From: Leucobacter sp. PH1c
Lineage (GTDB): Bacteria > Actinomycetota > Actinomycetes > Actinomycetales > Microbacteriaceae
NCBI RefSeq assembly: GCF_000633415.1
Contig: NZ_AYMV01000016.1
Coordinates: forward strand, 1 to 64,000
Length of the DNA: 64,000 nt
Direction of reading: 5' to 3'
Numbering within the stretch: the first letter of the stretch is position 1; every line of letters begins with the position of its first letter. The position numbers were made by a program, and so were the translations under genes. Positions 35,188 through 50,142 of the stretch are shown one piece after another. A model generated the notes under the pieces. The model saw only the letters and a program-made list of their open reading frames with translations. It searched no databases and was not told where the DNA came from.

Positions 35188-35352
35188 GCATCTCCTCGCT
35201 CGGGATCGCCCGCCGCCGCTTCCCGGCACGGGACCTGGCGAGTCTACGCCGCCGAGGGGCGCCGCGCGTGGATCGGGCGTTCGGGAAGGCGCGGTAGACT
35301 GAACTGAGCGCCGGCACTCCCCGAGTCTCCGGCCGCGCCTCGCCCCGATCGC

Positions 35353-35832
35353 TCAGGCGTCACGCGCACGATCGATACTTCGAGCCAGGTGCGCGCTGCG
35401 CTGGGCGGCGTCGGAGACCGGTCCCGCAGCAAGACCGATCATCTCGGCCGCCTGCTCTGGGCTCACCCCCGCGTCCGGGCTTTCGGCAACGACCGCGCTC
35501 GCGAGGAGAGCCTCTCGAATCGACTCGCACGCGCGCCCGGAGGACTGCAGTAGCCGAGTGATCGCGGTCTCCTCCGCACCAGGCAGCACCACCAGGTCGA
35601 GGACATAGAGATCGAAGGTCTGCATCGCGACGCTCAGCTGCTCCCCCGGGGAGAGCGACTCGTGCCACGCGCGAATGAACGCATCGCACCACTCCGGACG
35701 AGTCTCACCTGCACCCTCGGAGAGTGTCCGCATCACCGCCGAGATCGACAGCTCTGCGGCGATCTGCACCGCCGCACCGAGGTCCTCGCGCAGTATCGCG
35801 CGTTTCAGGCTGTTGTTCCTTGACCCAACCAT
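35353..35832 (-). CDS. Conserved hypothetical helical protein (159 aa)
   Basis: A 159-residue soluble helical protein starting MVGSRNNSLKRAILREDLGA, with LSPGEQLSVAMQTFDLYVLDLVVLPGAEETAI in the middle and an Ala-rich end (DAAQRSAHLARSIDRARDA). No known domain, signal or membrane segment. GAAAGG sits 6 nt before the ATG. Size and composition resemble the C-terminal half of its downstream neighbour. It is divergent from tRNA-Lys. Function unknown. Confidence 0.7.
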   Translation of the reverse strand: MVGSRNNSLKRAILREDLGAAVQIAAELSISAVMRTLSEGAGETRPEWCDAFIRAWHESLSPGEQLSVAMQTFDLYVLDLVVLPGAEETAITRLLQSSGRACESIREALLASAVVAESPDAGVSPEQAAEMIGLAAGPVSDAAQRSAHLARSIDRARDA

Positions 35833-35927
35833 TGCTGACCTTTCGAGAGGTGATGGGCTCGCTGATCGGAACGTGCGCGGCCACTGAGTGGTGCACCTGC
35901 GTGGATCGGGAGAGCGGGAAAACACGA

Positions 35928-35944: not shown

Positions 35945-36017
35945 GGGCCTCTAGCTCAGTTGGTAGAGCATCGGACTTTTAATCCGCGGGTCGCCGGTTC
36001 GAGCCCGGCGGGGCCTA
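35945..36017 (+). tRNA. tRNA-Lys (anticodon UUU)
   Basis: The 73-nt cloverleaf is complete: acceptor GGGCCTC pairing with GGGGCCT (with G-U pairs), D-arm GCTCAGTTGGTAGAGC, anticodon loop CTTTTAA with anticodon TTT, T-arm GCCGG-TTCGAGC-CCGGC and discriminator A. The 3' CCA is not encoded. It forms the left boundary of the RiPP cluster: the converging ABC exporter gene ends 10 bp away. Confidence 0.96.
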
Positions 36018-36025
36018 CTGCCCCA

Positions 36026-36058
36026 GTCACCCCGCGTCGCGCTGCGTCGCGGGGTGAC
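36026..36058. terminator. Bidirectional terminator between tRNA-Lys and the RiPP cluster
   Basis: GTCACCCCGCG (36026-36036) pairs perfectly with CGCGGGGTGAC (36048-36058) around an 11-nt loop. It lies 8 nt beyond the tRNA and overlaps the last codons of the converging ABC exporter gene, so it can serve both. Confidence 0.65.
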
Positions 36059-37784
36059 CGCGTTTCGGCGCCGCGATGCGCGCCTGGGGATCAAGTGGCG
36101 TCGTGTACGTTGGGGCGTTCGCCGTCTCAATTTCGAGCACCTCGTCGAAGCGCTCCAGGGTTTCCGCGCGGTGGGAGGCGGCCAGCACGGTTCCGGGGAA
36201 TCGGGCGATGACGTCGGAGATCGCGCGCTCCGATTCGGGGTCGAGGCTGGCGGTGATCTCGTCGACGATCAGCACGCGGGGGCGCCGGACCAGCGCCCGC
36301 GCCAGCCGCAGCCTCGCGTGCTGCCCGCCGGACAGCCGGACGCCCTGCTCGCCGAGTTCGTCGTCCAGCGAGATCCAGCCATCGGCTCCGACCTCGGCGA
36401 GGGCGCTGCGCAGAGCCTCGTCGCCGCACCCGTCTGTGCCCGCGCCGCGGAGCAGATTGTCCCGGACCGTCCCCGGGAAGAGGTGTCCGTCCTGCTCCAC
36501 GAACCCGATGGCACGGCGGAGTTCCGCATCGGGGATCGCATCGAGCGCGTACCCGCGTCCGGTGCCGTCGACGAGCTCGACCGAACCCGAGTCCGGGTCC
36601 CAGAGGCGGCCGGCGAGGGCGAGCAGGGTGCTCTTCCCCGCGCCGGAAGCGCCCGCGAGACCGACGTGGGCACCGGGACGGACCGACGCGGACCAGCCCG
36701 AGACCACGGCGGCCCGCCCGCCGTAGGAGAACCCCACCGTTCTGAAGCGGATCCCGAGGGGGCCGCCGGGAAGCGGCGCTCCGTCCCGCGTCCCGCCGAC
36801 GACGGCTGGCCGGTCGAGCCCCGCGGCGACGTTCCGCGCGCTCGCGACCAGGGGCCCGAGCTGCCCGAGGGTGGCCGCGGCATCGCTCAGCGCGGCGACA
36901 CCGGCGACCGCGATCGCGATCAGCGCGGGAAGGATCGCCGTGGTCCCGGCGGGCACCGGATCGCCGCCGAGGAGTCCCGCGGCCGCGGCCCCGGCGAGGA
37001 CCACCCCGATGACGACGACCGCGACGGCGAGCTCGCGGAGCCCGGAGACGGTCTGCGCGAGCATCTCCGTGCGGGCCGAGGTTCGCGCCGATCGCCGGGT
37101 CGCCGCCTCGGCGTCGGCGATCACCCGGGGTTCCAGCCCCGCCGAGAGCACCTCCCGCAGCGCTCCCAGCGCATCGACGATGCTCGTCGTCAGCTGTTCC
37201 CGTTCGCGCTGCTCGCGGACGCCGAGTGCGCGCGCCGTCCGGGCGCCGAGCAGGATCGACCCGAGCACGAGCGCCCCGCCGAGCAGCACGACCAGGGCCG
37301 CGGCGGGCAGCAGGACCGCCGACGCGACCGCGGACAGCAGGAACACCAGCGCCGAGGTCGCGAGCTGCGCGACCGTGTGCGCGTAGAAGAACTCCAGTTT
37401 CTCGATGTCCCCGAGCGCCGCCGCGGCACCCTTCGCCGAGTGCTCCCGCCGACGGGCCGGCGTGCTGCGCGCGTACGAGTCGAACAGCGACGCCCGGAGG
37501 CGGGCCAGCACCCGGTACGCGAGCGCGTGGGAGAAGTCCATCTCGTGCCAGGTGAGCACCGCACGGACGAGTACCAGCGCGAGGACCGCGGCGATCCACC
37601 AGCCCGGCGGCCACGCTCCCGTCACGAGCGCGCCGCCGACACCGCCGGCGATGAGCGCCGAGAGCACGGCGAGGCCCACCGCGCTCGCGGCGCCGGTCGC
37701 GAATCCCCGCACCATGCCTGCGCGTTCGGGCCGCAGGGCCACCAGGAGCCGGGCATAGGCGCGCAGGGCCTCCGACGTCTTCAT
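36027..37784 (-). CDS. ABC exporter half-transporter, CydC-like (RiPP cluster)
   Basis: A 585-residue protein with an N-terminal six-helix exporter domain (about 1-300) and a C-terminal ATPase: Walker A AGASGAGKSTLLAL, Q-loop FVEQDGHLFPGTVRDNLL, signature VRLSGGQHARLRLARAL and Walker B VLIVDEITASLDPESE. It resembles CydC/CydD-type heterodimeric exporters, but no cydAB is here. Its ATG overlaps the stop of the other half-transporter (ATGA at 37781-37784), so the two form one exporter. As last gene of the precursor/YcaO operon it most likely exports the modified peptide. Confidence 0.85.
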   Translation of the reverse strand: MKTSEALRAYARLLVALRPERAGMVRGFATGAASAVGLAVLSALIAGGVGGALVTGAWPPGWWIAAVLALVLVRAVLTWHEMDFSHALAYRVLARLRASLFDSYARSTPARRREHSAKGAAAALGDIEKLEFFYAHTVAQLATSALVFLLSAVASAVLLPAAALVVLLGGALVLGSILLGARTARALGVREQREREQLTTSIVDALGALREVLSAGLEPRVIADAEAATRRSARTSARTEMLAQTVSGLRELAVAVVVIGVVLAGAAAAGLLGGDPVPAGTTAILPALIAIAVAGVAALSDAAATLGQLGPLVASARNVAAGLDRPAVVGGTRDGAPLPGGPLGIRFRTVGFSYGGRAAVVSGWSASVRPGAHVGLAGASGAGKSTLLALAGRLWDPDSGSVELVDGTGRGYALDAIPDAELRRAIGFVEQDGHLFPGTVRDNLLRGAGTDGCGDEALRSALAEVGADGWISLDDELGEQGVRLSGGQHARLRLARALVRRPRVLIVDEITASLDPESERAISDVIARFPGTVLAASHRAETLERFDEVLEIETANAPTYTTPLDPQARIAAPKRGHPATQRDAG

Positions 37785-39451
37785 AGGATGCCTTCCTGCG
37801 ACCGGAGCCGGCCGGCGTCGAGCAGATGGATGTCCGAGACGCCGCGGAGCGTCTCGATCCGGTGGGTGATCATCAGCACGATCCGGTCCCGGGCGACCTC
37901 GTGGAGTGACCGCATCACGATCTCCGCGCTCGCCGGATCGAGCGCGCTGGTCGGCTCGTCGACGAGGAGGATCGGGCGGTCTGCGAGGAGGGCACGGGCG
38001 AGGGCAATCCGCTGCCGCTGCCCGCCGGAGAAGCTCGAGCCCGCCTCGGTCACCTCGGTGCGGAAGCCGTCGGGCAGGGCGCGGATCTCCGGCAGGATTC
38101 CGGCGCGGGCGCAGGCGTCGACGAGCTCGTCCTGCGATGCGCGCCCGTGCGGGTCGAGGTTCTCGCGCAGCGTGCCCGCGAAGAGCACGGGCCGTTGGGA
38201 GAGCACGGCGGTGTCGCCGGTCCGGAGCGGACGTCCGTCGAGTTCGATCCGGCCGGAGTCGGGGGTCAGGAAGCCGAGCACCAGATCGAACAGCGTCGAT
38301 TTGCCGGCGCCCGAGGGCCCCACGACGGCGTGCAGGCGGCCGCGTTCGACGACGAGCTCGGCATCGTGCACCACGCCCTGCTCCGCCGACGGATAGCGGA
38401 ACGACACGCGATCGAGTCGGAGGACCTCGCCGTGCGTGGATGCGGCGGGGGCGTCCTCGGGGCGGGGAAGCTCCTCCCGACCGGGATCCCGACCCGGATC
38501 TCCTGCCGGGAAGGCGCCCAGCTCGCGCAGGCTGGGCACCGCAGTCAGGCCGAGGAACCCGGCGTGCCAGTGCCGGGAGAGATCGCGAACCGGCCGGAAC
38601 GCCTCCGACGAGAGCAGCAGCACGGCGTAGATCGCGAACGGCGCCGGGGAGCCGGAGACCGCGCTCCCGATCGCGACGAACGCTGCGGCGACGAGCCCGC
38701 CCTGCACCGCGAAGTCGGTCACCGCCGTGCCCGCGAGAGACGCCCGCATGGTTCGTTCCGTCGCCCGGCGGAGCGCGTCGGAACGGTGCGCGATGCGCTC
38801 CCGCGTGCGATCCACGTCGCCGAGCAGGCGGAGCGTCGACATGCCCCGCAGCGAGTGGAGCACCTCGCCGCTCAGGGATTCGTACTCGCCCCACTGCCCG
38901 TCGCCCCGTCGTGCCAGTGCACGCTTCCAGAGCAGCGGCCCGAGAACCGCGAGCAGGACGCCGAGGGCGACGCATCCCGCTGCGAGCGGAGAGACGGAGC
39001 AGAGAGCCAGGAGCACGAGCGGGGTGCCGACGACGAGCTGCACGGTCGCCGGAATGTACTTCGACACGTACGCATCGGTCCCCTCTACGCCGTCGACGAT
39101 CGCGGCGGCCGCGGCGCCGTCGCCCGCTGCCGCGTCGTGCAGCCGTTCGGGTCGCAGCACCGAGATCAGCGCTCCGCGGCGCAGAGCGCTCCGGACGCGC
39201 CCGCCGAGCCGGGCGGACGCGGCCGCCTGCCCCAGCGCGAGCAGGATCCTGAGCACCGCACCGACGAGGATCGCGATGGCGCAGGCGATCACCTGCGAGG
39301 CATCGCCGCGGAAGAACCCCGACAGCGCCCACGCAATGGCGGTCGCCTGCAGCACGTGCGTCGCGAGGACGGCGAGCTGCAGCACCGCGGAGAGGAGGAA
39401 CAGCGTCGGGTGCCTCAGGGCTTCGCGCCAGAGAACGGGCACCAGCATCAT
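37781..39451 (-). CDS. ABC exporter half-transporter, CydD-like (RiPP cluster)
   Basis: A 556-residue partner with six membrane helices (first: FLLSAVLQLAVLATHVLQATAIAWALSG region) and an ATPase domain: Walker A VGPSGAGKSTLFDLVLG, Q-loop VLSQRPVLFAGTLRENL, signature SSFSGGQRQRIALARAL, Walker B ILLVDEPTSALDP and switch MITHRIETL. The fold follows CydD. It begins at ATGATG overlapping the stop of the SagB-type gene and ends overlapping the second half-transporter, so all are translationally coupled. In this setting it should be a dedicated peptide exporter rather than a cysteine/glutathione exporter. Confidence 0.85.
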   Translation of the reverse strand: MMLVPVLWREALRHPTLFLLSAVLQLAVLATHVLQATAIAWALSGFFRGDASQVIACAIAILVGAVLRILLALGQAAASARLGGRVRSALRRGALISVLRPERLHDAAAGDGAAAAAIVDGVEGTDAYVSKYIPATVQLVVGTPLVLLALCSVSPLAAGCVALGVLLAVLGPLLWKRALARRGDGQWGEYESLSGEVLHSLRGMSTLRLLGDVDRTRERIAHRSDALRRATERTMRASLAGTAVTDFAVQGGLVAAAFVAIGSAVSGSPAPFAIYAVLLLSSEAFRPVRDLSRHWHAGFLGLTAVPSLRELGAFPAGDPGRDPGREELPRPEDAPAASTHGEVLRLDRVSFRYPSAEQGVVHDAELVVERGRLHAVVGPSGAGKSTLFDLVLGFLTPDSGRIELDGRPLRTGDTAVLSQRPVLFAGTLRENLDPHGRASQDELVDACARAGILPEIRALPDGFRTEVTEAGSSFSGGQRQRIALARALLADRPILLVDEPTSALDPASAEIVMRSLHEVARDRIVLMITHRIETLRGVSDIHLLDAGRLRSQEGIL

Positions 39452-40494
39452 CGGTCGGACTCCTTCGATCGGGCGAGCAGCGCGGACGCGTGCAGGATCC
39501 AGGTGCCGGGTTCCGGCGAGATGCCGGACACCGGGCGGACGCCGTACGTGCCCGAGCGCAGCGCCGAGGTGAGTAGTTCGGCGGCCTCGAGGTGCGCACG
39601 CCAGAGCTCTCGGAGCAGCAGGTCGGCCGGCGGATCGGCGGGCACGGACCAGACGCGCACCACCGAGGCGCCCCGGACCCACGATTGCCCCGAGGCGAGC
39701 GCGACGCGTTCGGCCCCGGGACTCGGCGGATTTCCCTCGGCCCGGGCGAGATACTCCGAGCGCTCCGGGCTCCGCCGCTCGCGCAGCAGGCTCCGATGCG
39801 AGTCAAGCACCGCGGGGTCATCGGCGATCTCCATCGTCGCGAGCGGGAGCAGCGGCGCGAGCCCGAGCCGGAGCCAGGCATCGACGTCGTGCGCGGCGGG
39901 GAACGCCAGCAGCGCGCGGAGGTCCGCGTCGGGACCGAGCCGGACCCGGTGAGAGCCGGCCAGCACGAAGCGCGCCGCCTGCAGCGCGTACGCCGTGTCC
40001 GCGATCCACAGCGGCCAGGCCCGATGCCGATAGCGGCCGAAGCTCCGCCCCGGTTGGACGGCGAGCACCAGCCAGCTTCCCCGGGGGCGGACCCCGGAGG
40101 GCCATCCGGCGACGCGCTCCCGCGCCGGGCTTCGTCGCCACCAGCGGTCGGTATCGGGGTCGTAGGCGAAACGCCCGCCGTCGGAACCCACTAGGTGGAG
40201 CTGCACCGGGTACGCACCCCCGGCCGAGGGGATCGGGCGACGAGGGATCGAGGTCGGCTCGCCCGACGCGGTGCGGTGCGGCTCCCCCGCCCGCAGCAGC
40301 GCGTCGGCGAGCGCCCGGATCCCCGGTGCGACCTCCGCCGGTTCGGCACCCCCGTTCCACCAGGGGTTCCCGCGCGGGCCGGGAGGCACCGGAGGGCCCG
40401 GGTGCGCGCCGGAGAATGCGCGCCGGAGGAGCTCCGGAATCGGGGGCGCCGCGACGGGCGACGGGAGGATGCGCGGTCCCATCGCGCGTCTCAC
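39448..40494 (-). CDS. SagB-type nitroreductase-fold dehydrogenase (RiPP cluster)
   Basis: A 348-residue FMN enzyme of the SagB/ThcOx group, which oxidises azolines made by YcaO to azoles. The typical nitroreductase/SagB start of the fold is RRPIPSAGGAYPVQLHLVG with FAYDPDTDRWW after it. The rest is a helical flavin-binding fold with WPLWIADTAYALQAARFVLAG. The frame opens at GTG 40494, whose GTGA overlaps the stop of the YcaO gene; an ATG at 40482 is an alternative. The C-terminal 100 residues (SAPERS to SKESDR region) are less conserved-looking. Cytoplasmic. Confidence 0.82.
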   Translation of the reverse strand: MRRAMGPRILPSPVAAPPIPELLRRAFSGAHPGPPVPPGPRGNPWWNGGAEPAEVAPGIRALADALLRAGEPHRTASGEPTSIPRRPIPSAGGAYPVQLHLVGSDGGRFAYDPDTDRWWRRSPARERVAGWPSGVRPRGSWLVLAVQPGRSFGRYRHRAWPLWIADTAYALQAARFVLAGSHRVRLGPDADLRALLAFPAAHDVDAWLRLGLAPLLPLATMEIADDPAVLDSHRSLLRERRSPERSEYLARAEGNPPSPGAERVALASGQSWVRGASVVRVWSVPADPPADLLLRELWRAHLEAAELLTSALRSGTYGVRPVSGISPEPGTWILHASALLARSKESDR

Positions 40495-42854
40495 ATGTGC
40501 GGGGGCGGGACGAGGGTGAACTCGTCCGGGCCCCCGGTCCAGCGATCGCGCCAGCCGCGTTCGAGCGCCGCCTCGCCGAAGCGCGGCATCCCGAGGTAGG
40601 CGAAGGCGGCCGGAGCATTGGGCACGAGCCCGGTGACCACGGTGCGCACGACGCGCAGCGCGGTACGGCGCACGTCGGAGGTGGTGAGATCCCGCGTCAG
40701 GACGCGATGGCCGCGCCGTTCCAGTTCGGCGTAGACCTGCGGCATGGTCGTCGGGACGAGCGCGTCGATCGAGCGGACGCCGAGCGCCGGCTCGGTGAAC
40801 CGACGTGCCTCCCGGTGCACCTCGGGGTCGAGCCAGACCTGCACGTGCGCACCGAGATCGATCACCCGCTCGAACCGGGGGCCGGCGATCGCGGTGTAGT
40901 CGGCGTTCGCACGATGCTCGAGATGCAGCCCGGCGGCCATGAGTCCCCGGTCGATCGCGCGGAAGACCCAGCCGTCGGCCGCCGTGCAGCCCTGCGTGTA
41001 GACCCAGGTGTGCACCGCTTCGAGCACCGCCTTGCGCGCGGCCCGCACCGGATCGAGGTGCGCGGAGAACCCCGCGGCGTAGAGGCCGCGCCGCTCGTCG
41101 TGCACGAGCGCCGCGACCGCCGGGGCGAACTCCGACGGCATGGCCACAAGATGCACGCTCAGCTCGCCGCCGTCCAGGTCGTCGAGCAGGCCGGGAACCG
41201 TCGCCGGATCGATACCGAAGGTCGGTCCGTCGAGATGCCACCAGGTTTCGAGCGCGTCCCGTTCGATCACCTCGAGCACACCCCGATCGGCCGCGTCCTC
41301 GGCTCCCGCGCCGGTGGCGATCCCCGCGTAGTTCAGGTGGTGGGTCCTCGGTAGCCCGCGGAACCGGCGCTGACGCCAGTTCAGGTGCGTCAACGCCGCG
41401 GGGAGCCAGTGGGCTCGCCCCGTACGATCCGAGCAGCGGGCCCACAGTGCGGGGGTGTCCTCGCGGAGGGCCCGGTACGGGAAGTCCGCCCGGTCGAGCT
41501 GCCACGGTGCGAAGGACGGGAGCTCGGTCGGCGGCACGACCGTCTCCCCGTCGGCGCGCAACTGCTCGGCGGTGCCGATGCGCAGGTCCTCGGGAAGCGG
41601 ATCCGCCGGGATCCAGTTGCCGCAGTAGCGTTCGATCCCCTCCCCGATCGCGGCGATGCGGGCCGCGGCCGGATCGCCGAACGAGGTGCCGAGGGAGACG
41701 CGGTCCGCGGGCCATTCGCCGAGGCGGCGCGCATCCGACACCGACGCGGTGAGGGCGAGGTACGCCGGCGGGGCGCCGGCCGGCGGTCCGACCCGCGCGA
41801 TCGAGCGGATGAGGCCGCATTCCGCATCGACCAGGTCCTCGACGGGAATCGGGTCGGGCAGGTGGGACGGGTGCATGGGGATCCTCTCGTGGCGCCAGGC
41901 GCCGTCTGCGGGGCCGAAGACCGAGCGGGTCGCCGGGCCATCGGGAAGGGCGAGGGGTCTCCGTGGTCGTGGAACGGGCAGACCCTCGCGGGCGAGCCAG
42001 GCGTCGATGACCGCGCCGAGACCGCCGGCGGTTCCGAGCGCGGCCGCCTCGGCCGGGTCGAGGTCGGCGGCGAGCCGATGACCCCACGGACCGTCGACGA
42101 GGTGGGTGCGACCGGGCCAGACCGCGGCGAGACGTCCGGCATCGGCATGGAAGAAATCGGCGTCGCCGCGGATCAGGAGCAGCGGTTCCGTCCGCCCCGA
42201 GGCGCAGTCTGCGAGGTTCCGAGGTTCGGCGCCCCAGAGCTTGCGCCAGCGTTCGAGAACGTCCGCGGGCCACCCCCAGGTCTCGGCGGCACGCAGCGGA
42301 CCGAGCTCGCGGGCCCGCCGCGCTCGGTCCGACAGCTCGGTCTCGGGCAGGGGCGGGGCCGAACGCGGGCCGCGCCCGTGCTCGTGCCACCATCCGATGC
42401 GGGAGCGGTACTGGGGCGCGCCGTCGACGGAACGGGCGGTCTCAGCGAGCCCGAGCGCCGGGACGAGCAGCAGCATCCCCGCCGGTGCCCCGTCCCAGGC
42501 GCGGGCGGCTTCGAGCGCGGTGTGCGCGGCGTACGAGGCCCCGTAGAGCAGGAGCGGAACCCCGGGGAACTCGCCATCGACGGCGCGGAGGGCGTCGGCA
42601 CCGTCCTCCGCCTCGTGCCGATAGGGATCCCACTCGCCGTCGGAGGCGTACCGGCCACGCACGTCCTGCACGATGCAGCGGTACCCGCGCCGGTTCCAGG
42701 AGCGCGCGATCGGAGCGTGCGCACCGGCGTCGTAGGGGGTTCGGATCAGGACGGTACCGCGCGGACTCCGCGGCGACCAGATCAGCCCCCGCAGCTCGAT
42801 GCCGTCCCGGGTCGAGCAGTGGTGCCGCGCGGGGACGGGCTCAGCGGACCGCAC
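40491..42854 (-). CDS. S15/CocE-type alpha/beta hydrolase fused to YcaO cyclodehydratase
   Basis: A 787-residue fusion. Residues about 1-290 are an S15/CocE-like alpha/beta hydrolase: RGTVLIRTPYD, VQDVRGRYASDGEWDPYRHEAEDG, nucleophile elbow YGASYAAHTALEAA, Asp in IRGDADFF and His in DGPWGHRLA. Residues about 340-787 are a YcaO domain: VSLGTSFGDPAAARIAAIGEGIERYCG and RGVLEVIERDALETWW hold the ATP/Mg-binding Glu residues, and the protein ends PPPHM, a Pro-rich tail as in azole-forming YcaO enzymes. The YcaO part would cyclise Ser/Thr of the precursor to oxazolines; the hydrolase could trim the leader. The GTG at 42854 has GGAGG 9 nt upstream and overlaps the preceding gene by 14 bp. Confidence 0.85.
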   Translation of the reverse strand: MRSAEPVPARHHCSTRDGIELRGLIWSPRSPRGTVLIRTPYDAGAHAPIARSWNRRGYRCIVQDVRGRYASDGEWDPYRHEAEDGADALRAVDGEFPGVPLLLYGASYAAHTALEAARAWDGAPAGMLLLVPALGLAETARSVDGAPQYRSRIGWWHEHGRGPRSAPPLPETELSDRARRARELGPLRAAETWGWPADVLERWRKLWGAEPRNLADCASGRTEPLLLIRGDADFFHADAGRLAAVWPGRTHLVDGPWGHRLAADLDPAEAAALGTAGGLGAVIDAWLAREGLPVPRPRRPLALPDGPATRSVFGPADGAWRHERIPMHPSHLPDPIPVEDLVDAECGLIRSIARVGPPAGAPPAYLALTASVSDARRLGEWPADRVSLGTSFGDPAAARIAAIGEGIERYCGNWIPADPLPEDLRIGTAEQLRADGETVVPPTELPSFAPWQLDRADFPYRALREDTPALWARCSDRTGRAHWLPAALTHLNWRQRRFRGLPRTHHLNYAGIATGAGAEDAADRGVLEVIERDALETWWHLDGPTFGIDPATVPGLLDDLDGGELSVHLVAMPSEFAPAVAALVHDERRGLYAAGFSAHLDPVRAARKAVLEAVHTWVYTQGCTAADGWVFRAIDRGLMAAGLHLEHRANADYTAIAGPRFERVIDLGAHVQVWLDPEVHREARRFTEPALGVRSIDALVPTTMPQVYAELERRGHRVLTRDLTTSDVRRTALRVVRTVVTGLVPNAPAAFAYLGMPRFGEAALERGWRDRWTGGPDEFTLVPPPHM

Positions 42855-43662
42855 GCTCGGGCGCCTCCGGGTACGGGAGCAGCGGGTGCAGTCCGATCGA
42901 TCCGGTGGGCGCCACGAGCTTCCACAGCGTGCGCCGCAGCGCGTCGAGGGTCGGTTCGTCCCGCGCCCAGGCGACCGCGAGCTCGACCACCCGGGCCACC
43001 AGCAGGGTCCGCGCCGCGTCGTCGAGCGGCTGCGGCGGCGAGCCCGCCGTGCGGATCCAGGCATCGAGCTCCTCCGGGGACGCGCTCGCCGCAACGCGAC
43101 GTCCGACGACCTGGATCGCGGTCGGGTCCACCGGCGCGACGGCGAGGGGATCGACGAACACGGTGTCGCCCTCCCGATACGCCCGGATGCGGGCCGCGCT
43201 GTCGCCTGCGCGGGCCTCCCAGGCGGTCCAGGCGTCCCGCAGGCGCGCGTCCTCGGCGTAGAGGACGGTGAGTCCGGACCGTGGGACGGGGACGGGGTCC
43301 GATCCCGGATCCGCCCGGCGCACGTCGGCGCCCCACGCGCTCAGCGCGGCCTCGACGGCATCGAGCACGTCGCCGGCCGGACCGAGCAGCAGCACCTCCC
43401 GGCGATGCTCGGGCCAGCGCTCGACCCGGGCCGCGGCCTCATCGGACCGGATCTCCTCGACCAGTCGTCGGAGGTACTCGGTATCGAAGTCGGCGTCGGC
43501 ACCGCGATCTTCCGGGTCGAGCAGCGATTCGAGACCGTCGGGGCGGTCCTGGATCCTGACCAATCGGCCGGAGGCCAGGTGCACGACGTCCCGTGCGGGG
43601 GCGGAGACGACGAGCTGGGCTCCGGTGCCCGGGATCGGGAGCGCCGGTTTCTGCTGTTCCAT
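42841..43662 (-). CDS. E1-like (ocin-ThiF) leader-peptide-binding protein (RiPP cluster)
   Basis: A 273-residue protein matching the partner proteins of azole-forming YcaO enzymes. The N-terminal 90 residues look like the winged-helix leader recognition element (GRLVRIQDRPDGLESLLDPE, YLRRLVEEIRSDEAA). The remainder follows the E1/ThiF-like pattern (REVLLLGPAGDVLDAVEAALSAWGADVRRADP, DTVFVDPLAVAPVDPTAIQVV, LLVARVVELAVAWARDE). It contains no Cys at all, so the zinc-binding CxxC pairs of classical members are absent. It would present the precursor to the YcaO fusion. GAGGAACC precedes the ATG at 43662. The assignment rests on pattern and context. Confidence 0.75.
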   Translation of the reverse strand: MEQQKPALPIPGTGAQLVVSAPARDVVHLASGRLVRIQDRPDGLESLLDPEDRGADADFDTEYLRRLVEEIRSDEAAARVERWPEHRREVLLLGPAGDVLDAVEAALSAWGADVRRADPGSDPVPVPRSGLTVLYAEDARLRDAWTAWEARAGDSAARIRAYREGDTVFVDPLAVAPVDPTAIQVVGRRVAASASPEELDAWIRTAGSPPQPLDDAARTLLVARVVELAVAWARDEPTLDALRRTLWKLVAPTGSIGLHPLLPYPEAPERAVR

Positions 43663-43691
43663 ATGGTTCCTCGGTGTGGTTCTCGGGGAGA

Positions 43692-43723
43692 GCCCGGCCG
43701 GGCGACGAATCGCCCGACCGGGC
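43692..43723 (-). terminator. Hairpin between precursor gene and modification genes
   Basis: A 14-bp stem with one wobble pair (43692-43705 with 43710-43723), read on the transcript as a TTCG tetraloop hairpin. It lies 28 nt behind the precursor stop and 29 nt before the next Shine-Dalgarno region. Such an element commonly lets the precursor mRNA accumulate above the enzyme mRNA. Confidence 0.65.
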
Positions 43724-43751
43724 CGGATACGGGCCGGGGATGGCCCCGATC

Positions 43752-43850
43752 TCACTCGAAGGGGTTCTCGACCAGGGCGTTCGAGTGGGTGGCCGAGTGG
43801 TGCGCGAGCTGCTCGGTCTCTTCGATCTCGGCGATGATTCGCTGCTCCAT
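43752..43850 (-). CDS. Candidate RiPP precursor peptide (32 aa)
   Basis: A 32-residue ORF immediately upstream of the leader-binding and YcaO genes. The first 16 residues are acidic and helical (MEQRIIAEIEETEQLA), fitting a short leader. The last 16, HHSATHSNALVENPFE, hold the only Ser residues (Ser19, Ser23), Thr21 and all three His (17, 18, 22), and there is no Cys. Ser/Thr next to His would give methyloxazoline/oxazole rings beside imidazoles, a plausible metal-binding array. GAAAGGA lies 8 nt before the ATG. The leader/core border and any modification are inferred. No homologue is recognised. Confidence 0.75.
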   Translation of the reverse strand: MEQRIIAEIEETEQLAHHSATHSNALVENPFE

Positions 43851-43925
43851 GGGGTGATTCCTTTCGTGTGTGCACCGCCCGAGGGTTCTCGGACGGACTC
43901 GCGGGGCGAGTGCTCACACCCTAGA

Positions 43926-43940
43926 TGAAAATGATTCTCA
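43926..43940. promoter_or_regulatory. Zur-like operator between the two arms of the cluster
   Basis: TGAAAATGATTCTCA differs at one base from the palindromic actinobacterial Zur box TGAAAATGATTTTCA (7-1-7 form). It lies 9 nt upstream of a TAGACT -10 box (43949-43954) for the rightward peptidase gene and covers the -35 region. Leftward, it also overlaps the promoter zone of the precursor gene. Zinc-bound Zur should therefore repress both arms. An iron-responsive Fur-type regulator is a less likely reader; the box does not look like a DtxR/IdeR site. Confidence 0.75.
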
Positions 43941-43961
43941 ATATCTACTAGACTCGCCGGC

Positions 43962-45707
43962 ATGCCAGATTCATCGCGCCCTCAGCAGACGCGGGTCGCC
44001 GACTCGCTCGACGCCGCCCTCAGAGACTGGGAAGCGCACGAGCGCCCCGGTCTCCCCGTCGACGGTTTCGTACTCGGCCGTCGCCCGAAGCGGTACCGGA
44101 CCGGGCTCTACCGCGTCGACGGCACCACCGTCATCGAGCCCGAGGGCCACCTGCTCCGCATCACGCCGGCGCCGAATCGACGCCGGATCGCGGTCGAGTG
44201 GGCGCCCCGCGCCGACGAGAACGCCGTGCTCGGGATCGTCGATGCGGAACGCGAGGAGCTTCGCCTCCACGAGCGCATCGGCGTGCGCCACGACCCGGTG
44301 CTCTGGAGCGCCGATTCCTCTCGCCTCGAGGTCGCCGCGAGCCGGGAACGCGCGATCATCGAACTGGACGTCGTATCGGGCCGGAGCACAAGGATGCCCG
44401 TCGCCGGCGTGGAACGCGTCCGGCTGCTGCCCGGAGGCGCGGAGGGCCTGCTCGCCCGGCGACCAGACGGCGGACCGACCGAACTGATCGACCGGAGCAC
44501 CGGCGCATCGGTCGGCCGCTACGGCGCGGTGCACCGGACGGCGATCTGCGACGAGGGGTTCGTCGTCTGGCACGACCGTGGAATCGACCGCTTCACCGAC
44601 CGCGGGGCGCATCGGTGGAGCTGGCACGAACCGGGGCTCCGGATCACCGACCTCGCCTCCTCCGGCGACGGGATCCTCGCGCTCGGGGCCAGCGACGGAC
44701 GCAGCGTCGTGGTGGGTCTCTCCGACGGGGCGTCCCGCGAGATCCGCGAGATCGCCGCCGGCCACGGCCCCGCTGCCGCGACGGGGATCGCGATGACCGA
44801 CCACGGGCCGGTCGTCCGCGTCGAGGCCCCGCTCGTCCCGCCCCGCGTGATCCCGCTGACCGAGGCGACCGCCCCGTTCACGGACGCCGAGCCCGCGCCG
44901 GGCACCGAGGACGGTCCCCGCACCTCGACGCTGACCGTGCGAGCCGACGACGGGACCGAGATCACGGTGATCCTCGCGCTTCCGCACGACCGCACCGGAC
45001 CGATCCCCGTGATCCTCACCTGCTACGGCGGCTTCGGCGTCCCGGCCCTTCCCGAGTTCGAGCCGACCATCCCCGCCTGGGTCGACCACGGTGGCGGCTA
45101 CGCGATCGCGCAGATCCGGGGCGGCGGCGAGCGCGGGAACGAGTGGTGGTGGGCGGGCAGCGGGGCCCGGAAGCAGCGCGCCGTCGACGATCTCGCCGCG
45201 GTGGCCGCGGGACTCTGCGCGGCGGGCATCAGCCGCCCCGAGCTGCTAGTGCTGGCGGGCGCGTCCCACGGCGGCTGCATCGCGGCGGCCTGCGGCCTCG
45301 AGCACCCCGGAAGCTTCTCGGGGATCGCCGTGACCGCGGCTCCGCTGGACCTGCTCGCGCTCGACGCCCACCCGCTCGGACGCCTGTGGCGCGACGAGTT
45401 CGGCGACGACGGGACCGCCGAGAGCCGCGAACGGCTGCGACGCCTCTCGCCGCTCGAACGCGCGAGGAGACTGCGGCCCGATCAGCCCGTTCCGGCGTTC
45501 CTCGGCATCGTGCTCGCGGAGGACACCCGGGTGGCGCCCGACGACACCCGGCGCGTCGTCGACGCCCTGCGCGGGCACGGCGCTCGGGCGGAGCTCTGGG
45601 AGGCCCGGGGAGCCGGCCACGGGGCCAACCACCTGGACGCCCTGCACGCCATCGGGTCCAGGATCCTCGCGTTCGCGGCGCGCACGACCGGGCTGGCCGA
45701 GGCATGA
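43962..45707 (+). CDS. S9 prolyl oligopeptidase family peptidase (RiPP cluster)
   Basis: A 581-residue serine peptidase without signal peptide. The N-terminal part (about 1-320) is a beta-propeller. The C-terminal catalytic domain has VILTCYGGFGVPALPEFEP, IAQIRGGGERGNEWWWAG, nucleophile GASHGG (Ser435), Asp521 in AEDTRV and His553 in GAGHG, the standard prolyl oligopeptidase triad. These enzymes cut short peptides, often after Pro. It could remove the leader or release metal by degrading the imported peptide. TAGACT lies 7 nt before the ATG (leaderless), directly behind the Zur-like box. Its stop overlaps the permease start (ATGA). Confidence 0.88.
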   Translation: MPDSSRPQQTRVADSLDAALRDWEAHERPGLPVDGFVLGRRPKRYRTGLYRVDGTTVIEPEGHLLRITPAPNRRRIAVEWAPRADENAVLGIVDAEREELRLHERIGVRHDPVLWSADSSRLEVAASRERAIIELDVVSGRSTRMPVAGVERVRLLPGGAEGLLARRPDGGPTELIDRSTGASVGRYGAVHRTAICDEGFVVWHDRGIDRFTDRGAHRWSWHEPGLRITDLASSGDGILALGASDGRSVVVGLSDGASREIREIAAGHGPAAATGIAMTDHGPVVRVEAPLVPPRVIPLTEATAPFTDAEPAPGTEDGPRTSTLTVRADDGTEITVILALPHDRTGPIPVILTCYGGFGVPALPEFEPTIPAWVDHGGGYAIAQIRGGGERGNEWWWAGSGARKQRAVDDLAAVAAGLCAAGISRPELLVLAGASHGGCIAAACGLEHPGSFSGIAVTAAPLDLLALDAHPLGRLWRDEFGDDGTAESRERLRRLSPLERARRLRPDQPVPAFLGIVLAEDTRVAPDDTRRVVDALRGHGARAELWEARGAGHGANHLDALHAIGSRILAFAARTTGLAEA

Positions 45708-46768
45708 CCGCCGTCCGCCCGGGTCGCGCGTTCCGCCGGGTCGCGCTGCTGAGCGCCCTCGCCTGCGGGATCCTCGTCGTCCTCGTGGTCTCGGGTTCGA
45801 CCGGCACCGTGCAGGTCGGGCTCGCCGATGCCGCACGGCTCGTCATCGGACACCTGATCCCGGGGATGCCCTGGATGACCGACGGGTCCCTCACCCCGCT
45901 CCAGGATCAGGCGGTGTGGCAGTTCCGGCTGCCCCGCGCCCTGCTCGCGGGCATATCGGGAGCCGGGCTCGCGCTCGCCGGCGCGATCATGCAGGTGGTG
46001 GTGCGCAACCCGCTCGCCGAGCCCTACATCCTCGGCGTCTCCTCCGGGGCGAGCGTCGGAGCCGTACTCGTCATCGTGGGCGGCAGCGCAGCAGCCGCGG
46101 GACTCGGGCTCAGCGGTGCCGCATTCCTCGGCGCGATGCTGGCCGGGATCCTCGTGGTGTTCCTCGCCCGCCGTCGGGGCGAGCTCTCGCCCACGCGGAT
46201 GATCCTCGCCGGAGTCGCGCTCGGTTCGCTGCTCAGCGCCGTCACGAGCTACCTCACGCTCACAACGGATGCGCAGAACGTCGTGAGCATCATGTTCTTC
46301 CTCCTCGGCAGTGTCTCCGCCGCGACCATGTCGTCGCTGCCGATCCCCGCCGTCGCCCTCCTCGTGTCCTGCGTCGCAGCGCTGGCGCTCACCCGCCCCA
46401 TGAACGCGCTGCTCTCGGGAGACGAGTCCGCGCTCGCCGTCGGCGTGCGCACGACCCGGCTCCGCGCGGTGCTGCTCGTCATCGCCTCCCTGCTCACCGG
46501 CGTGGTGGTCGCGGTGAGCGGCGGCATCGGGTTCGTCGGCCTCGTCGTCCCCCACGTCGCCCGCATGCTCGTCGGCTCGGACCACCGGAGGATGCTGCCG
46601 GTGACCGTGCTCGCCGGAGCCCTGTTCCTCATGATCGCCGACCTGCTCGCGCGCACCGTCGCCGCTCCGACCGAGATCCCGCTCGGGATCCTCACGGCCT
46701 TCGTCGGCGCCCCGTTCTTCCTCTGGCTGATGCGCCGCGGAGGCGAGCGAGCGGGGTTCGACCGATGA
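45704..46768 (+). CDS. FecCD-type siderophore/metallophore ABC permease
   Basis: A 354-residue permease of the BtuC/FecCD family with about ten helices. Family marks are WQFRLPRALLAGISGAGLALAGAIMQVVVRNPLAEPYILGVSSGA near the start and GGIGFVGLVVPHVARMLVGSDHRRMLPVTVLAGALFLMIADLLART near the end, where the loop contacts the ATPase. These permeases import siderophore-metal complexes, haem or cobalamin as homodimers; here a single permease gene fits that. It overlaps both neighbours by ATGA and lies in the Zur-controlled rightward arm. Confidence 0.93.
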   Translation: MTAVRPGRAFRRVALLSALACGILVVLVVSGSTGTVQVGLADAARLVIGHLIPGMPWMTDGSLTPLQDQAVWQFRLPRALLAGISGAGLALAGAIMQVVVRNPLAEPYILGVSSGASVGAVLVIVGGSAAAAGLGLSGAAFLGAMLAGILVVFLARRRGELSPTRMILAGVALGSLLSAVTSYLTLTTDAQNVVSIMFFLLGSVSAATMSSLPIPAVALLVSCVAALALTRPMNALLSGDESALAVGVRTTRLRAVLLVIASLLTGVVVAVSGGIGFVGLVVPHVARMLVGSDHRRMLPVTVLAGALFLMIADLLARTVAAPTEIPLGILTAFVGAPFFLWLMRRGGERAGFDR

Positions 46769-47565
46769 GCATCGAGTTCCACGACCTCCGCGTCGACCTC
46801 GGCGGGCACCCGGTCCTCACCGGCATCGACCTGCGGATCCGGCCCGGCCGGGTCACCGCGCTGATCGGTCCGAACGGCAGCGGGAAATCGACGCTGCTGC
46901 GCACGGTCTTCGGCGCACGGCGACCGACGAGCGGCCGGGTCACCGTCGACGGCACCGACGTCGCGGCGATCCCGCCACGGAAGCTCGCCCGAACGGTCGC
47001 CGTCATGCTCCAGGACGCCCCGTCCGAGTTCGATCTGACCGTGCACGAGACCGTGATGGTCGGGCGGGCGCCGCACCAGGCCGCGTTCTCCCCCGAACGG
47101 GCGGTCGACCGTCGCGCCGTCGAGCGCGCGCTGCGCACCGTCGGCCTCGAAGCGCACGCCGGCCGGTTGCTCCGGCAGCTCTCCGGCGGGCAGCGCCAAC
47201 GGGTGATGCTCGCTCGAGCACTCGCGCAGGAGGGCCGGATCCTCGTGCTCGACGAACCCACCAACCACCTCGACATCACCCATCAGCTCGAGATCATGCG
47301 CCTCGTCCGCGGCATCGGGATCACGGTCGTCGCAGCGCTCCACGACCTCTCGCTCGCCGCCGACTTCTGCGACGACGTCGCCGTGCTCCACGAGGGGCGC
47401 GTGCGCGCGTTCGGCTCCCCGGGCGATGTCCTCGGCGCACCCCTCGTCCGCGAGGTGTTCGGGGTCGATCCGCGCCCGTCGACGGAGGATGCCTCCGGCC
47501 ACCGCTTCCTGAGGTTCCGGCCCATCGCCGAGCCCGCACCCACCCGCGCATCCGCGCACGAATAA
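46765..47565 (+). CDS. FecE/BtuD-type ABC ATPase (metallophore import)
   Basis: A 266-residue ATPase with Walker A GPNGSGKSTLLR, Q-loop VMLQDAPSEFDLTVHETVMVGRAPHQ (the GR.PH form of the siderophore subfamily), signature LSGGQRQRVMLARALAQ, Walker B ILVLDEPTNHLDI and switch AALHDLSLAADFCD. It energises the adjoining permease. Its ATG overlaps the permease stop. The family normally serves siderophores, haem or cobalamin; under a Zur-like box, a zinc-chelate role is likelier. Confidence 0.93.
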   Translation: MSIEFHDLRVDLGGHPVLTGIDLRIRPGRVTALIGPNGSGKSTLLRTVFGARRPTSGRVTVDGTDVAAIPPRKLARTVAVMLQDAPSEFDLTVHETVMVGRAPHQAAFSPERAVDRRAVERALRTVGLEAHAGRLLRQLSGGQRQRVMLARALAQEGRILVLDEPTNHLDITHQLEIMRLVRGIGITVVAALHDLSLAADFCDDVAVLHEGRVRAFGSPGDVLGAPLVREVFGVDPRPSTEDASGHRFLRFRPIAEPAPTRASAHE

Positions 47566-47577
47566 TCAAGGAGAACC

Positions 47578-48621
47578 ATGCAGCAGCGCACCCTCACCAC
47601 CCGACCGCGAGCGGCCCGATCCCGCATTCCGCTCGCGGTCTCGGCGTCGGCGCTCGCCCTCGCACTCGTCGGCTGCGGCTCGGCGGTCGCCGACGAGCGG
47701 CCGCAGGCGCGGACGGACGCGGGCCCCGTCGTACTCGAGAACTGCGGCCGGGAGCTCACCGTCCCGAGCACGCCGAAGGCCGTGGTCGGCCTCCACCCGT
47801 CCCAGACCGAACTGCTGCTCCGCCTGGGCGTCGCGGACCGGATGGTCGGCCAGGCCCAGACCACGTCGCTCGCCTTGCCCGACGACGTCGCGAAGCTCGC
47901 GACGAGCATCCCGGTGATCGGCGAGGCGGCCCCGCCCAGCCGCGAGGACCTGCTCGCGGTGTCGCCGGACTTCGTCTACTCGCCGACCACCTACGAGTTC
48001 ACCGCGGAGAAGGGGTTCGCGAGCATCGATCAGCTGACCGCCGCGGGCGCCACGGCCTACGTCGCCACCGGCGGCTGCTTCGAGCGGCGCATGACCGGGA
48101 CCGTCGACGACCTCTTCGTCGATCTGAAGAACCTGGGGCGGATCTTCGGGGCCGAGGACGAAGCGGCACGGCTCACCGACCGGGCGCAGCAGGATCTCGC
48201 CGAGGTGCAGCGGACCATCGACGGCGAGCGGAAGCCGAAGGCCGCCCAGGTCTTCGTCGACGGGACCTCGCTGTCCGCGATTGGGGCGGGTGTCGAGCAC
48301 GACATCATGCGACTCGCCGGGGCCGAGAACCTCTACGGCCCGAAGGACCCCGCGTTCGCCGACTTCTTCGCCGCGCAGATCACCCCCGAGTCGCTCGCGG
48401 CCCAGCGCCCCGAGGCGCTGGTGTTCGCGGTGACTGACGACGCGCACGAGCGTGCCACGCGGGACTACCTGCGGAAGACGTTCCCCGACATGCCCGCGGT
48501 GAAGAACGACCGCCTCATCGCGATCCCCTTCAGCGACACCTTCCCGGGCACCCTGGGCAACATCGACGCGGTCCAGCGGATCGCGGCCGGGCTCTACCCG
48601 CAAACCGCGGAGTCGCAGTAA
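47578..48621 (+). CDS. Metallophore-binding lipoprotein (FepB/BtuF type)
   Basis: A 347-residue substrate-binding protein with a lipoprotein signal (ALALALVGC, Cys33 lipidated). The mature part shows the type III binding fold: LENCGRELTVPSTPKAVVGLHPSQTELLLRLGVADRMVG, then EDLLAVSPDFVYSP, a long connecting helix (DRAQQDLAEVQRTID) and the second lobe with AALAVF-like strands and NIDAVQRIAAGL. There is no His-rich loop as in ZnuA/AdcA zinc-binding proteins, which argues that it binds a chelate rather than the free ion. An AAGGAGAACC Shine-Dalgarno is present. It is the last gene of the rightward arm. Confidence 0.92.
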   Translation: MQQRTLTTRPRAARSRIPLAVSASALALALVGCGSAVADERPQARTDAGPVVLENCGRELTVPSTPKAVVGLHPSQTELLLRLGVADRMVGQAQTTSLALPDDVAKLATSIPVIGEAAPPSREDLLAVSPDFVYSPTTYEFTAEKGFASIDQLTAAGATAYVATGGCFERRMTGTVDDLFVDLKNLGRIFGAEDEAARLTDRAQQDLAEVQRTIDGERKPKAAQVFVDGTSLSAIGAGVEHDIMRLAGAENLYGPKDPAFADFFAAQITPESLAAQRPEALVFAVTDDAHERATRDYLRKTFPDMPAVKNDRLIAIPFSDTFPGTLGNIDAVQRIAAGLYPQTAESQ

Positions 48622-48678
48622 GCCGCCATGAGCATCCAGAGCAAGGGGTAGGTCCCCCTTCCCGAGCTCCGATCTCTC

Positions 48679-48711
48679 CTCGCTCCGCGACGCTGAGCGT
48701 CGCGGAGCGAG
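48679..48711. terminator. Bidirectional terminator at the right end of the RiPP cluster
   Basis: A perfect 15-bp stem (48679-48693 with 48697-48711) around TGA separates the lipoprotein gene from the converging MocR gene, whose stop is 7 nt away. Confidence 0.8.
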
Positions 48712-48717
48712 CGCGTC

Positions 48718-50142
48718 TCAGCCGAGCAGTTCGGCGATGACGTCGAGGCCGCGCGCGAGCCGCGTGGACGGCTCTGCGCCGTAGCCGACGATGAGCCCGT
48801 CGGAACCGCTCACGGATTCCGCGCTTCCCCCTCGGTAGTCCCCCACGTGATCGACGAGCACGCCGCGCGCCGCGAGCGCCGCGACGGTCGCCGCGCCGTC
48901 GCGGCCGTCGAGGGAGAGCACCACGTGGAGCCCGCCGTCGGCCCCGCGCACCGGGATCCCCCGCGCAGCCAGGCGGTCCAGGAGCAGTTGCCGCCGGTGC
49001 CCGTACTCGCGACGGGTGCGAGCCAGTTCCCGGCGGAACCCGCCACTCTCCAGGAAGGCCGCGATCGTGCGCTGTTCGAGCAGCGGGAGCGCGGCCCCGA
49101 GGTCGTCGCGCGCGGCCCGCAACTCGGCGGCGAGCTCCGCGGTGCCCCCAGCGAGCACGATCGCGGCGCAGCGCACCGATGGGGAGAGCACCTTGTTCAG
49201 CGTCGTGATGGTCGCGACGCCCGCCGCAAGCGACCCCATCGCGGGCAGCAGGGCGCCACCGTGCCGGAACTCGCTGTCGTAGTCGTCCTCGATGATGAGC
49301 GCGCCGGTCTCGCCCGCCCACTCGAGGATCCCGAGCCGCTCGGCCGCCGGGATCCGCCCGCCGAGCGGGAACTGGTGGCTCGGCGTGAGGAGCGCTGCGT
49401 CGAGCGGGCCCGATCCGGCGAGCGCACGAAGCGCAGCCGCGGTCGCCCCGTCCGGGCCGACCGGAAGTCGCACGATCTCCGTCCCCGCTCGGGCGAGCGC
49501 GCGGATCCCTTCCTTGTAGCCCGGATCCTCGACGGCGATGCGCGGCGCCCGCCCGTGCAGCTCCCGGAGCGCAAGCGCGAGGAGCAGCAGGGCCTCCGAG
49601 GTCCCGCTCGCCACCGTGATATCCCCCTCGGCGCACACGATCCCCCGGGAGCGGCGCGTGTGGGCCGCGAGGGCGGCGCGCAGTTGCGGGATCCCCCGCG
49701 GATCCGGAGCGTCCGACTCCCAGGGTGCGCGCGCCGCGGCAGTCGCTGCGCGCACCCAGTCGCGCGGCGGAAGCTCGGAGACGAACGGGCGCCCCGGCCG
49801 CAGATCGATGGGGCGCTGCTCAGGCGCACCGGGAGCCACAGCCGCGGGTGCCGCGGCGGGCGCGTGCAGCGCGGGGGCGGCGCCCACGGGGAGCTCCGGC
49901 ACGACGCGGGTGCCCGCCCCCTGGCGGCTCTCGAGGAAGCCCTCGCCGACGAGCCGCTCGTACGCCGCGACGACGACCGTGCGCGAAACGCCGATCCCCG
50001 TGGCGAGCGCTCGGCTCGGCGGCAGCGCCTCACCGGGCGCCATGTCGCCCGCGAGGATCGCGGCACGGATCCGCGCGGTCAGCTGCTCGGCGAGCGGCTC
50101 GGCGAGCGTCCGATCGACGGCGAGCTGCGGAAAGACGTCCAT
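48718..50142 (-). CDS. MocR/PdxR-type GntR regulator with aminotransferase-like domain
   Basis: A 474-residue regulator. The N-terminal winged helix (about 1-85) reads EPLAEQLTARIRAAILAGDMAPGEALPPSRALATGIGVSRTVVVAAYERLVGEGFL. The C-terminal fold-type I domain has the MocR marks TPSHQFPLG, IEDDYDSEFRHG and the PLP-Lys region TTLNKVLSPSVR. Such proteins sense PLP or an amino compound and often control PLP synthesis or transport genes. It follows a LysE-type exporter gene by 11 bp, so it probably regulates that exporter. It is not obviously part of the zinc cluster. Confidence 0.9.
   Translation of the reverse strand: MDVFPQLAVDRTLAEPLAEQLTARIRAAILAGDMAPGEALPPSRALATGIGVSRTVVVAAYERLVGEGFLESRQGAGTRVVPELPVGAAPALHAPAAAPAAVAPGAPEQRPIDLRPGRPFVSELPPRDWVRAATAAARAPWESDAPDPRGIPQLRAALAAHTRRSRGIVCAEGDITVASGTSEALLLLALALRELHGRAPRIAVEDPGYKEGIRALARAGTEIVRLPVGPDGATAAALRALAGSGPLDAALLTPSHQFPLGGRIPAAERLGILEWAGETGALIIEDDYDSEFRHGGALLPAMGSLAAGVATITTLNKVLSPSVRCAAIVLAGGTAELAAELRAARDDLGAALPLLEQRTIAAFLESGGFRRELARTRREYGHRRQLLLDRLAARGIPVRGADGGLHVVLSLDGRDGAATVAALAARGVLVDHVGDYRGGSAESVSGSDGLIVGYGAEPSTRLARGLDVIAELLG

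Follow-up and report, generated by a model that had tools for sequence, protein, structure and literature searches.

A streptamidine-family gene cluster of Leucobacter carries a conserved Zur-like box that suggests a role in zinc acquisition

Known systems and the Leucobacter locus

Methanobactin is a ribosomally made metal carrier that binds copper and relies on other enzymes and ligands than the streptamidine (ami) clusters. An ami cluster, with a Zur-like box between its two operons, is the subject of this report; it lies at positions 36027-48621 of a 64,000-nucleotide stretch of Leucobacter sp. PH1c (contig NZ_AYMV01000016.1, positions 1 to 64,000), which we call the window. To our knowledge, neither klebsazolicin nor bottromycin has a link to zinc. 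Both share YcaO-made amidine rings with the ami family but are antibiotics (cited in PMC8442711).

Streptamidine is an HLSATH peptide with a six-membered amidine; its Ser and Thr are unmodified, and it contains neither an azole nor an oxidation, though the dehydrogenase is essential (Russell et al. 2021, PMC8442711). Production requires amiB, amiC, amiD, amiE and the importer genes, and the exporters only for full yield, while amiX is partially conserved among the clusters of this type. The authors suspected metal import and left the role open. They described the family, which numbers more than 230 clusters, in 2021 (PMC8442711); a new class of RiPP is thus not supported, although a preliminary description of the window had supposed that a YcaO-made zinc carrier would be new.

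Relative to the streptamidine cluster of Streptomyces albidoflavus J1074 (PMC8442711), the window cluster shares the precursor family, AmiB, the hydrolase AmiC, the YcaO protein AmiD, the dehydrogenase AmiE, two ATP-binding cassette (ABC) exporter halves and a FecBCDE-type importer. It differs in its core (HHSATH instead of HLSATH), in the fusion of hydrolase and YcaO, which is also found in 4/79 relatives, in lacking amiX, and in an importer that is divergent and accompanied by a prolyl-oligopeptidase-like gene. Coelibactin, a Zur-repressed predicted zincophore of S. coelicolor (PMC5472717), resembles the putative window product in that both would be actinobacterial, Zur-controlled, predicted metal carriers, but it is built by a non-ribosomal peptide synthetase whereas the window peptide comes from a gene-encoded precursor.

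A streptamidine-family cluster around a single intergenic box

The amiA precursor (43752..43850, minus strand) is a 32-aa open reading frame with the predicted core HHSATH followed by SNALVENPFE, and it matches NCBIfam NF040714, "streptamidine family RiPP" (ribosomally synthesized and post-translationally modified peptide), scoring 65.3 bits where the cut-off is 40. AmiB, AmiC, AmiD, AmiE, the exporter and the FecBCDE-type importer all co-occur with it, and both the gene set and its order agree with the ami cluster described by Russell et al. (PMC8442711). Two operons diverge in the region, with a single intergenic box between them. These features strongly indicate that it is a copy of the known, functionally unexplained streptamidine-family cluster. 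The preliminary description had read the locus as a RiPP cluster with its own exporter and importer, a reading borne out by the NF040714 precursor, the ABC exporter halves and the PF01032/PF00005/PF01497 importer. Its proposed oxazol(in)e product fared less well. The cluster does encode YcaO, E1-like and SagB-type proteins, yet its precursor belongs to an amidine family, for which the product on record is an amidine hexapeptide without oxidation (PMC8442711).

The box, TGAAAATGATTCTCA (43926..43940), precedes both operons, at 75 nt from the start of the precursor gene and 21 nt from that of the peptidase gene. It has no mismatch at the 11 fixed positions of tGaNNatSatNNtCa, the S. coelicolor Zur motif derived from chromatin immunoprecipitation (PMC5472717). 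Allowing at most three mismatches, the window held three matches, two of which are the same site on both strands, against 0.16 expected. What appears to be new here is that a Zur-like box goes with the streptamidine family. The word "zur" occurs 0 times in the main text of PMC8442711, and the open-access literature (PMC) yielded no link of a YcaO-made RiPP to a zincophore or to Zur; subscription papers and preprints were outside that scope, so an earlier report may exist.

The box is conserved in ami relatives

A YcaO scan of genome contigs, with a three-sequence alignment as query, gave 180 relatives, of which the best 80 were analysed; because of this selection, and because many are Streptomyces, the 80 loci are not independent. 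The precursor was readable in 77, the contigs of the other three breaking off. For each locus, the 300 nt before the precursor start were searched for the closest match to TGAAAATGATTTTCA, with 1540 dinucleotide shuffles as a control. At most 3 of 15 positions mismatched in 74/77 loci, as opposed to 1/1540 shuffles, and the distance from the precursor start was 60-96 nt in all 77. Only L027, L030 and L031 had more than three mismatches (four in two loci, six in L027). Against the published motif tGaNNatSatNNtCa, 33/77 loci had no mismatch and 26/77 had one (59/77 with at most one), where the shuffles gave 0 and 6 of 1540 (PMC5472717). The box is common to ami loci of Leucobacter, Microbacterium, Nocardiopsis, Saccharomonospora, Streptomyces and other genera. 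The preliminary description had named homologous clusters without importer and box as a refutation of its reading; none of the 80 loci was without both, L027, L030 and L031 keeping the importer.

A hidden Markov model of the precursor gave nine further loci, three of them copies from one genome; 7/9 had at most two mismatches and 8/9 at most three. Overlap of these nine with the 80 is likely, because the precursor of L003 ends like that of L077. In genome G139 we noted three near-identical ami copies (L009, L010, L011), two of them near contig ends. Boxes of the DtxR- and Nur-type consensus were not enriched at the loci.

A matrix was also built from 13 rpmB promoters, its training sites being the best Zur-consensus matches in the 200 nt upstream, picked without a shuffle control. 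These had 2-4 mismatches, and 12/13 lay at 39-43 nt, L086 deviating. The matrix ranked the ami site first within its locus in 43/77 cases and first or second in 63/77. An rpmB paralogue lies in the same fetched stretch as ami in 13/80 loci, in 12 of them with an rpsN paralogue; the rpsN protein of L067, the one read, has no cysteine. Row L066 of alignment A3 ends in the wrong frame.

The same box marks zinc genes in ami-bearing genomes

Scanning the genome of Leucobacter sp. PH1c (3.12 Mb, 73 contigs) at no more than two mismatches returned six sites, the ami site having none, and the reversed control returned 0. Two of the five non-ami sites precede zinc-type transporter genes: one lies 43 nt before a znuA-type gene (PF01297, 242 bits) in a znu-type gene set, and another 21 nt before an ABC-3 permease. 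Near the znu-type set is a FUR-family regulator gene (84.8 bits), a candidate for Zur.

Across 20 ami-bearing genomes, TGANAATNATTNTCA at no more than one mismatch found 65 sites, and its reversed control 8. We inspected 40 regions (41 sites), with neighbouring genes called by a simple script; the 24 sites left out comprised 21 taken as ami sites by position and 3 others. A zinc-homeostasis gene stood at the box in 20/40 of these regions outside ami. The genes at the boxes included znuA (Pfam ZnuA in 8 regions, a frame-split znuA in 1), CobW_C proteins (5), ABC ATPases read as ZnuC (2), an ABC-3 permease (1), a FUR protein (1), L28 with L33 (1) and an AztD-like protein (1; 355 bits, below the cut-off of 400). 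At 7/40 the box adjoined other transporters: four SBP_bac_5 binders, a FecCD permease, a metal-type P-ATPase and a binder beside ami. The preliminary description's Zur-type box between the operons thus recurs in relatives, whose genomes also have it beside zinc genes, and we regard Zur control of the cluster as very likely on these sequence grounds.

The boxes adjoining SBP_bac_5 (peptide/nickel-type) binders are those of the Streptomyces regions L135, L136, L137 and L141; these genes possibly represent a second Zur-controlled chelate importer. The znuA-like gene at L138:2524-3587 has a very His-rich loop and is split over two frames in the assembly.

Genes of the window cluster

All parts named in the preliminary description were found at or near the places it gave, by open reading frame calling, Pfam, NCBIfam and family profiles. 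On the minus strand with the precursor, amiB (42841..43662) is taken to encode an E1-like leader-peptide-binding protein. The protein itself has no Pfam or NCBIfam match; it is called E1-like because TIGR03882 (thiazole/oxazole-modified microcin, TOMM, precursor leader-peptide-binding protein) is matched by its relatives, 13 of 23 aligned AmiB members, with a best E value of 2.7e-6. The amiC-amiD fusion (40491..42854) joins an S15/CocE-type hydrolase (PF02129, 60.5 bits) to a YcaO cyclodehydratase (PF02624, 140.7 bits), and the CocE_NonD and TOMM_cyclo_SagD models match it below their cut-offs. Its closest named YcaO relatives are those of Leucobacter sp. Ag1 (97%) and OLIS6 (96%).

The next gene, amiE (39448..40482), probably encodes a SagB/McbC-type flavin dehydrogenase. 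Singly, its protein matched the SagB-type dehydrogenase model weakly (E 0.0056); the family profile compared with solved chains gave a putative nitroreductase at E 1.8e-8, CyaGox and a SagB-type dehydrogenase at about 4e-5, and McbC at 0.11. Two ABC exporter halves with PF00664 and PF00005 domains complete the operon: the CydD-like amiT1 (37781..39451; CydD 324 bits, cut-off 435) and the CydC-like amiT2 (36027..37784; CydC 214 bits, cut-off 329).

The plus-strand operon begins with an S9 prolyl-oligopeptidase-like protein (43962..45707; PF00326, 90 bits), followed by a FecCD-type importer permease (45704..46768; PF01032, 310.9 bits), the importer ATPase (46765..47565; PF00005, 118.5 bits) and a substrate-binding lipoprotein of the siderophore/cobalamin-binder class (47578..48621; PF01497, Peripla_BP_2, 77.4 bits), with a lipobox-like LVGC seen by eye. 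By these families, a dedicated chelate-type importer appears to be encoded together with the precursor, and the PF01497-type binder, of a class used for chelates, would count in favour of chelate import.

Precursor, transporters and AmiX in relatives

All 77 precursors have H-x-S-A-[S/T]-H as their first core, where x is L in 43, D in 24, A in 8 and H in 2; His at this position was seen in the window and in two Leucobacter loci. Two cores are present in 10/77 precursors, the tandem forms being those of L014, L015, L019, L020, L026, L029, L030, L031, L034 and L035. For dehydrated HHSATH we predict an [M+H]+ of 671.3008 and, for its zinc adduct, an [M-H+64Zn]+ of 733.21; the same sum for [M+H]+ gives the published 647.3260 for HLSATH (PMC8442711). 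The precursor family is rare, with matches in 3/396 genomes of a phylum sample, 3/398 of a family sample and 6/396 of an order sample, the Leucobacter genome itself being counted each time. The related family NF040715 was matched in 0/396 genomes, in a scan where no control matched either.

A FecCD match accompanies 76/80 loci; the four without one sit on short contigs (3.7-11.4 kb). In 31 loci the importer and the biosynthetic genes are on opposite strands, 30 of these with the peptidase, and in 45, all with a longer or truncated Streptomyces-type layout, they share a strand. Of the latter, 43/45 have a second box (at most two mismatches, without a shuffle control) in the 2.2 kb preceding the permease match. 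Five extra stretches yielded the permease in three, and one ends before the permease position. Exporter genes occur in 75/80 loci, the remaining five being on truncated contigs. In Glycomyces (L034:15986 onwards), a second set of binder, permease and ATPase with its own box follows just downstream of ami.

AmiX is present in 73/80 loci. The window gave no convincing match (best E 0.37), and AmiX is absent from the Leucobacter loci L012 and L013 too. It is a protein of about 400 aa whose gene starts at the box and diverges from that of the importer or of the precursor (e.g. L016:6667-7866, L067:1939-3240), and its invariant motifs in alignment A4 are EHAG, EH and DGHGD. AmiX has no Pfam or NCBIfam match, and comparison with solved structures gave no convincing relative (best profilins, E 0.04); we consider it a candidate metal-binding protein. 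Kinship with the zinc chaperone AztD was rejected, the profile comparison giving a probability of 2%.

A proposed role in zinc acquisition and its alternatives

Family membership, the conserved Zur box and the linkage to an importer are each strongly indicated by the sequences. That relatives, too, keep the Zur box points to a part for the peptide in zinc uptake, and we think it probable, if by no great measure, that zinc starvation induces this streptamidine-family cluster and that the cluster's function is to acquire zinc. When loaded with zinc, Zur would bind at 43926-43940 and hold both operons off; as zinc falls, both would be transcribed. AmiB would present the precursor to the YcaO domain, and YcaO, AmiE and the fused hydrolase would convert the H-H-S-A-T-H core into an amidine-containing peptide, a chemistry that, like the need for the amiB-F genes, is taken from the published relative (PMC8442711). 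AmiT1/T2 may then export the peptide, which would take up zinc outside; the FecCD-type importer would return the zinc complex and the peptidase open it inside. These last steps are our inference. For zinc carriage it draws on how the cluster is regulated, on the chelate type of its importer and on the published finding that production depends on the importer (PMC8442711). A zincophore role is plausible, though what has been published on binding tells against the hexapeptide by itself.

Several observations weigh against this proposal. Chief among them, as regards zinc carriage, is the published binding test, in which streptamidine bound none of the ions tried (Fe, Co, Cu, Mg, Mn, Ni and Zn); an amiD mutant likewise showed no phenotype under metal starvation (PMC8442711). 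The core's sole candidate ligands, His, Ser and Thr, are a weak chelator set. Three of the five non-ami sites in the Leucobacter genome have no zinc link, and 13/40 of the box regions in ami-bearing genomes had nothing evident and no zinc link. A sigma-70-type promoter was sought at the window box and none was found. One of three ami copies in genome G139 (L007) is boxless, and L176 has AmiX and the peptidase, with the importer not found within the fetched stretch.

Zur control would itself explain why earlier metal assays could have missed a role in zinc. Furthermore, the lack of zinc binding by the published hexapeptide leads us to suppose that zinc may be bound by a bigger or an oxidised peptide, of which streptamidine would be the trimmed remnant. 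We therefore raise, tentatively and with more doubt than conviction, the possibility of a first ribosomally encoded zincophore system, in which a Zur-controlled peptide, larger or more oxidised than streptamidine, carries zinc back via AmiF, and streptamidine and shorter forms are fragments spent after import. Such a carrier would explain both why the hexapeptide does not hold zinc and why dehydrogenase and importer are essential for streptamidine although the hexapeptide is unoxidised (PMC8442711). If it exists, a gene-encoded, easily engineered peptide would join the known non-ribosomal and opine-type zincophores.

The published tests also speak for a different reading under Zur control, unlikely in our judgement yet the strongest of the alternatives, in which the peptide is a signal or competition molecule of zinc starvation that the importer recaptures or clears. 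The missing zinc binding and the silent amiD mutant count in its favour, and the authors themselves proposed signalling or development (PMC8442711). The FecCD/PF01497 importer at nearly all loci, with its own Zur box in Streptomyces, argues against it, as does the published failure to find antibacterial or antifungal activity (PMC8442711).

The zinc-regulated context would also suit an intracellular zinc buffer or delivery ligand, the importer serving another chelate and being merely co-regulated, and extra FecCD sets in some loci, such as L034, lend this some support. We hold it improbable in view of the exporter genes and of the importer genes needed for production (PMC8442711). Iron might be thought of because Russell et al. 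used fecBCDE names and because the importer family mostly carries iron-siderophore annotation, but an iron system is very improbable: the best DtxR-type matches had 8-10/19 mismatches, a level that shuffles reached as well, the box present is of the Zur type and marks zinc genes, and the published chrome azurol S (CAS) assay for iron was negative (PMC8442711). One box in one window would be thin evidence, but a chance match in a cluster unrelated to metals is contradicted by the conservation in relatives and can be practically dismissed.

Zinc acquisition, as proposed here, would bear on the open question of what the published streptamidine-like clusters do, for which the box shared across genera gives a concrete, testable lead.

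The cluster as a mobile unit

In two genomes of the same genus, G1184 and G1175 (L190, L191), the flanks are present and the cluster is absent. Homology to the window breaks off at 36054 and 36071 and picks up again at 48734, and the tRNA-Lys is retained, so the cluster appears as a clean insertion (36060-48730) between tRNA-Lys (35945-36018) and a MocR/GntR-like regulator. The span given in the preliminary description (36027-48621) is, as judged from these comparisons, almost exactly this one insertion. The empty sites in two genomes imply that precursor, enzymes, both transporters and box travel as one unit. We looked for attachment-site repeats at the island edges, and no exact flank repeat was among the 20 of 28 repeat families listed. 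Just outside the island, a stretch of about 600 nt (35299-35898) with a 190-aa open reading frame, lying between the copies of a 33-nt imperfect direct repeat (79%), is also missing from G1184 and G1175.

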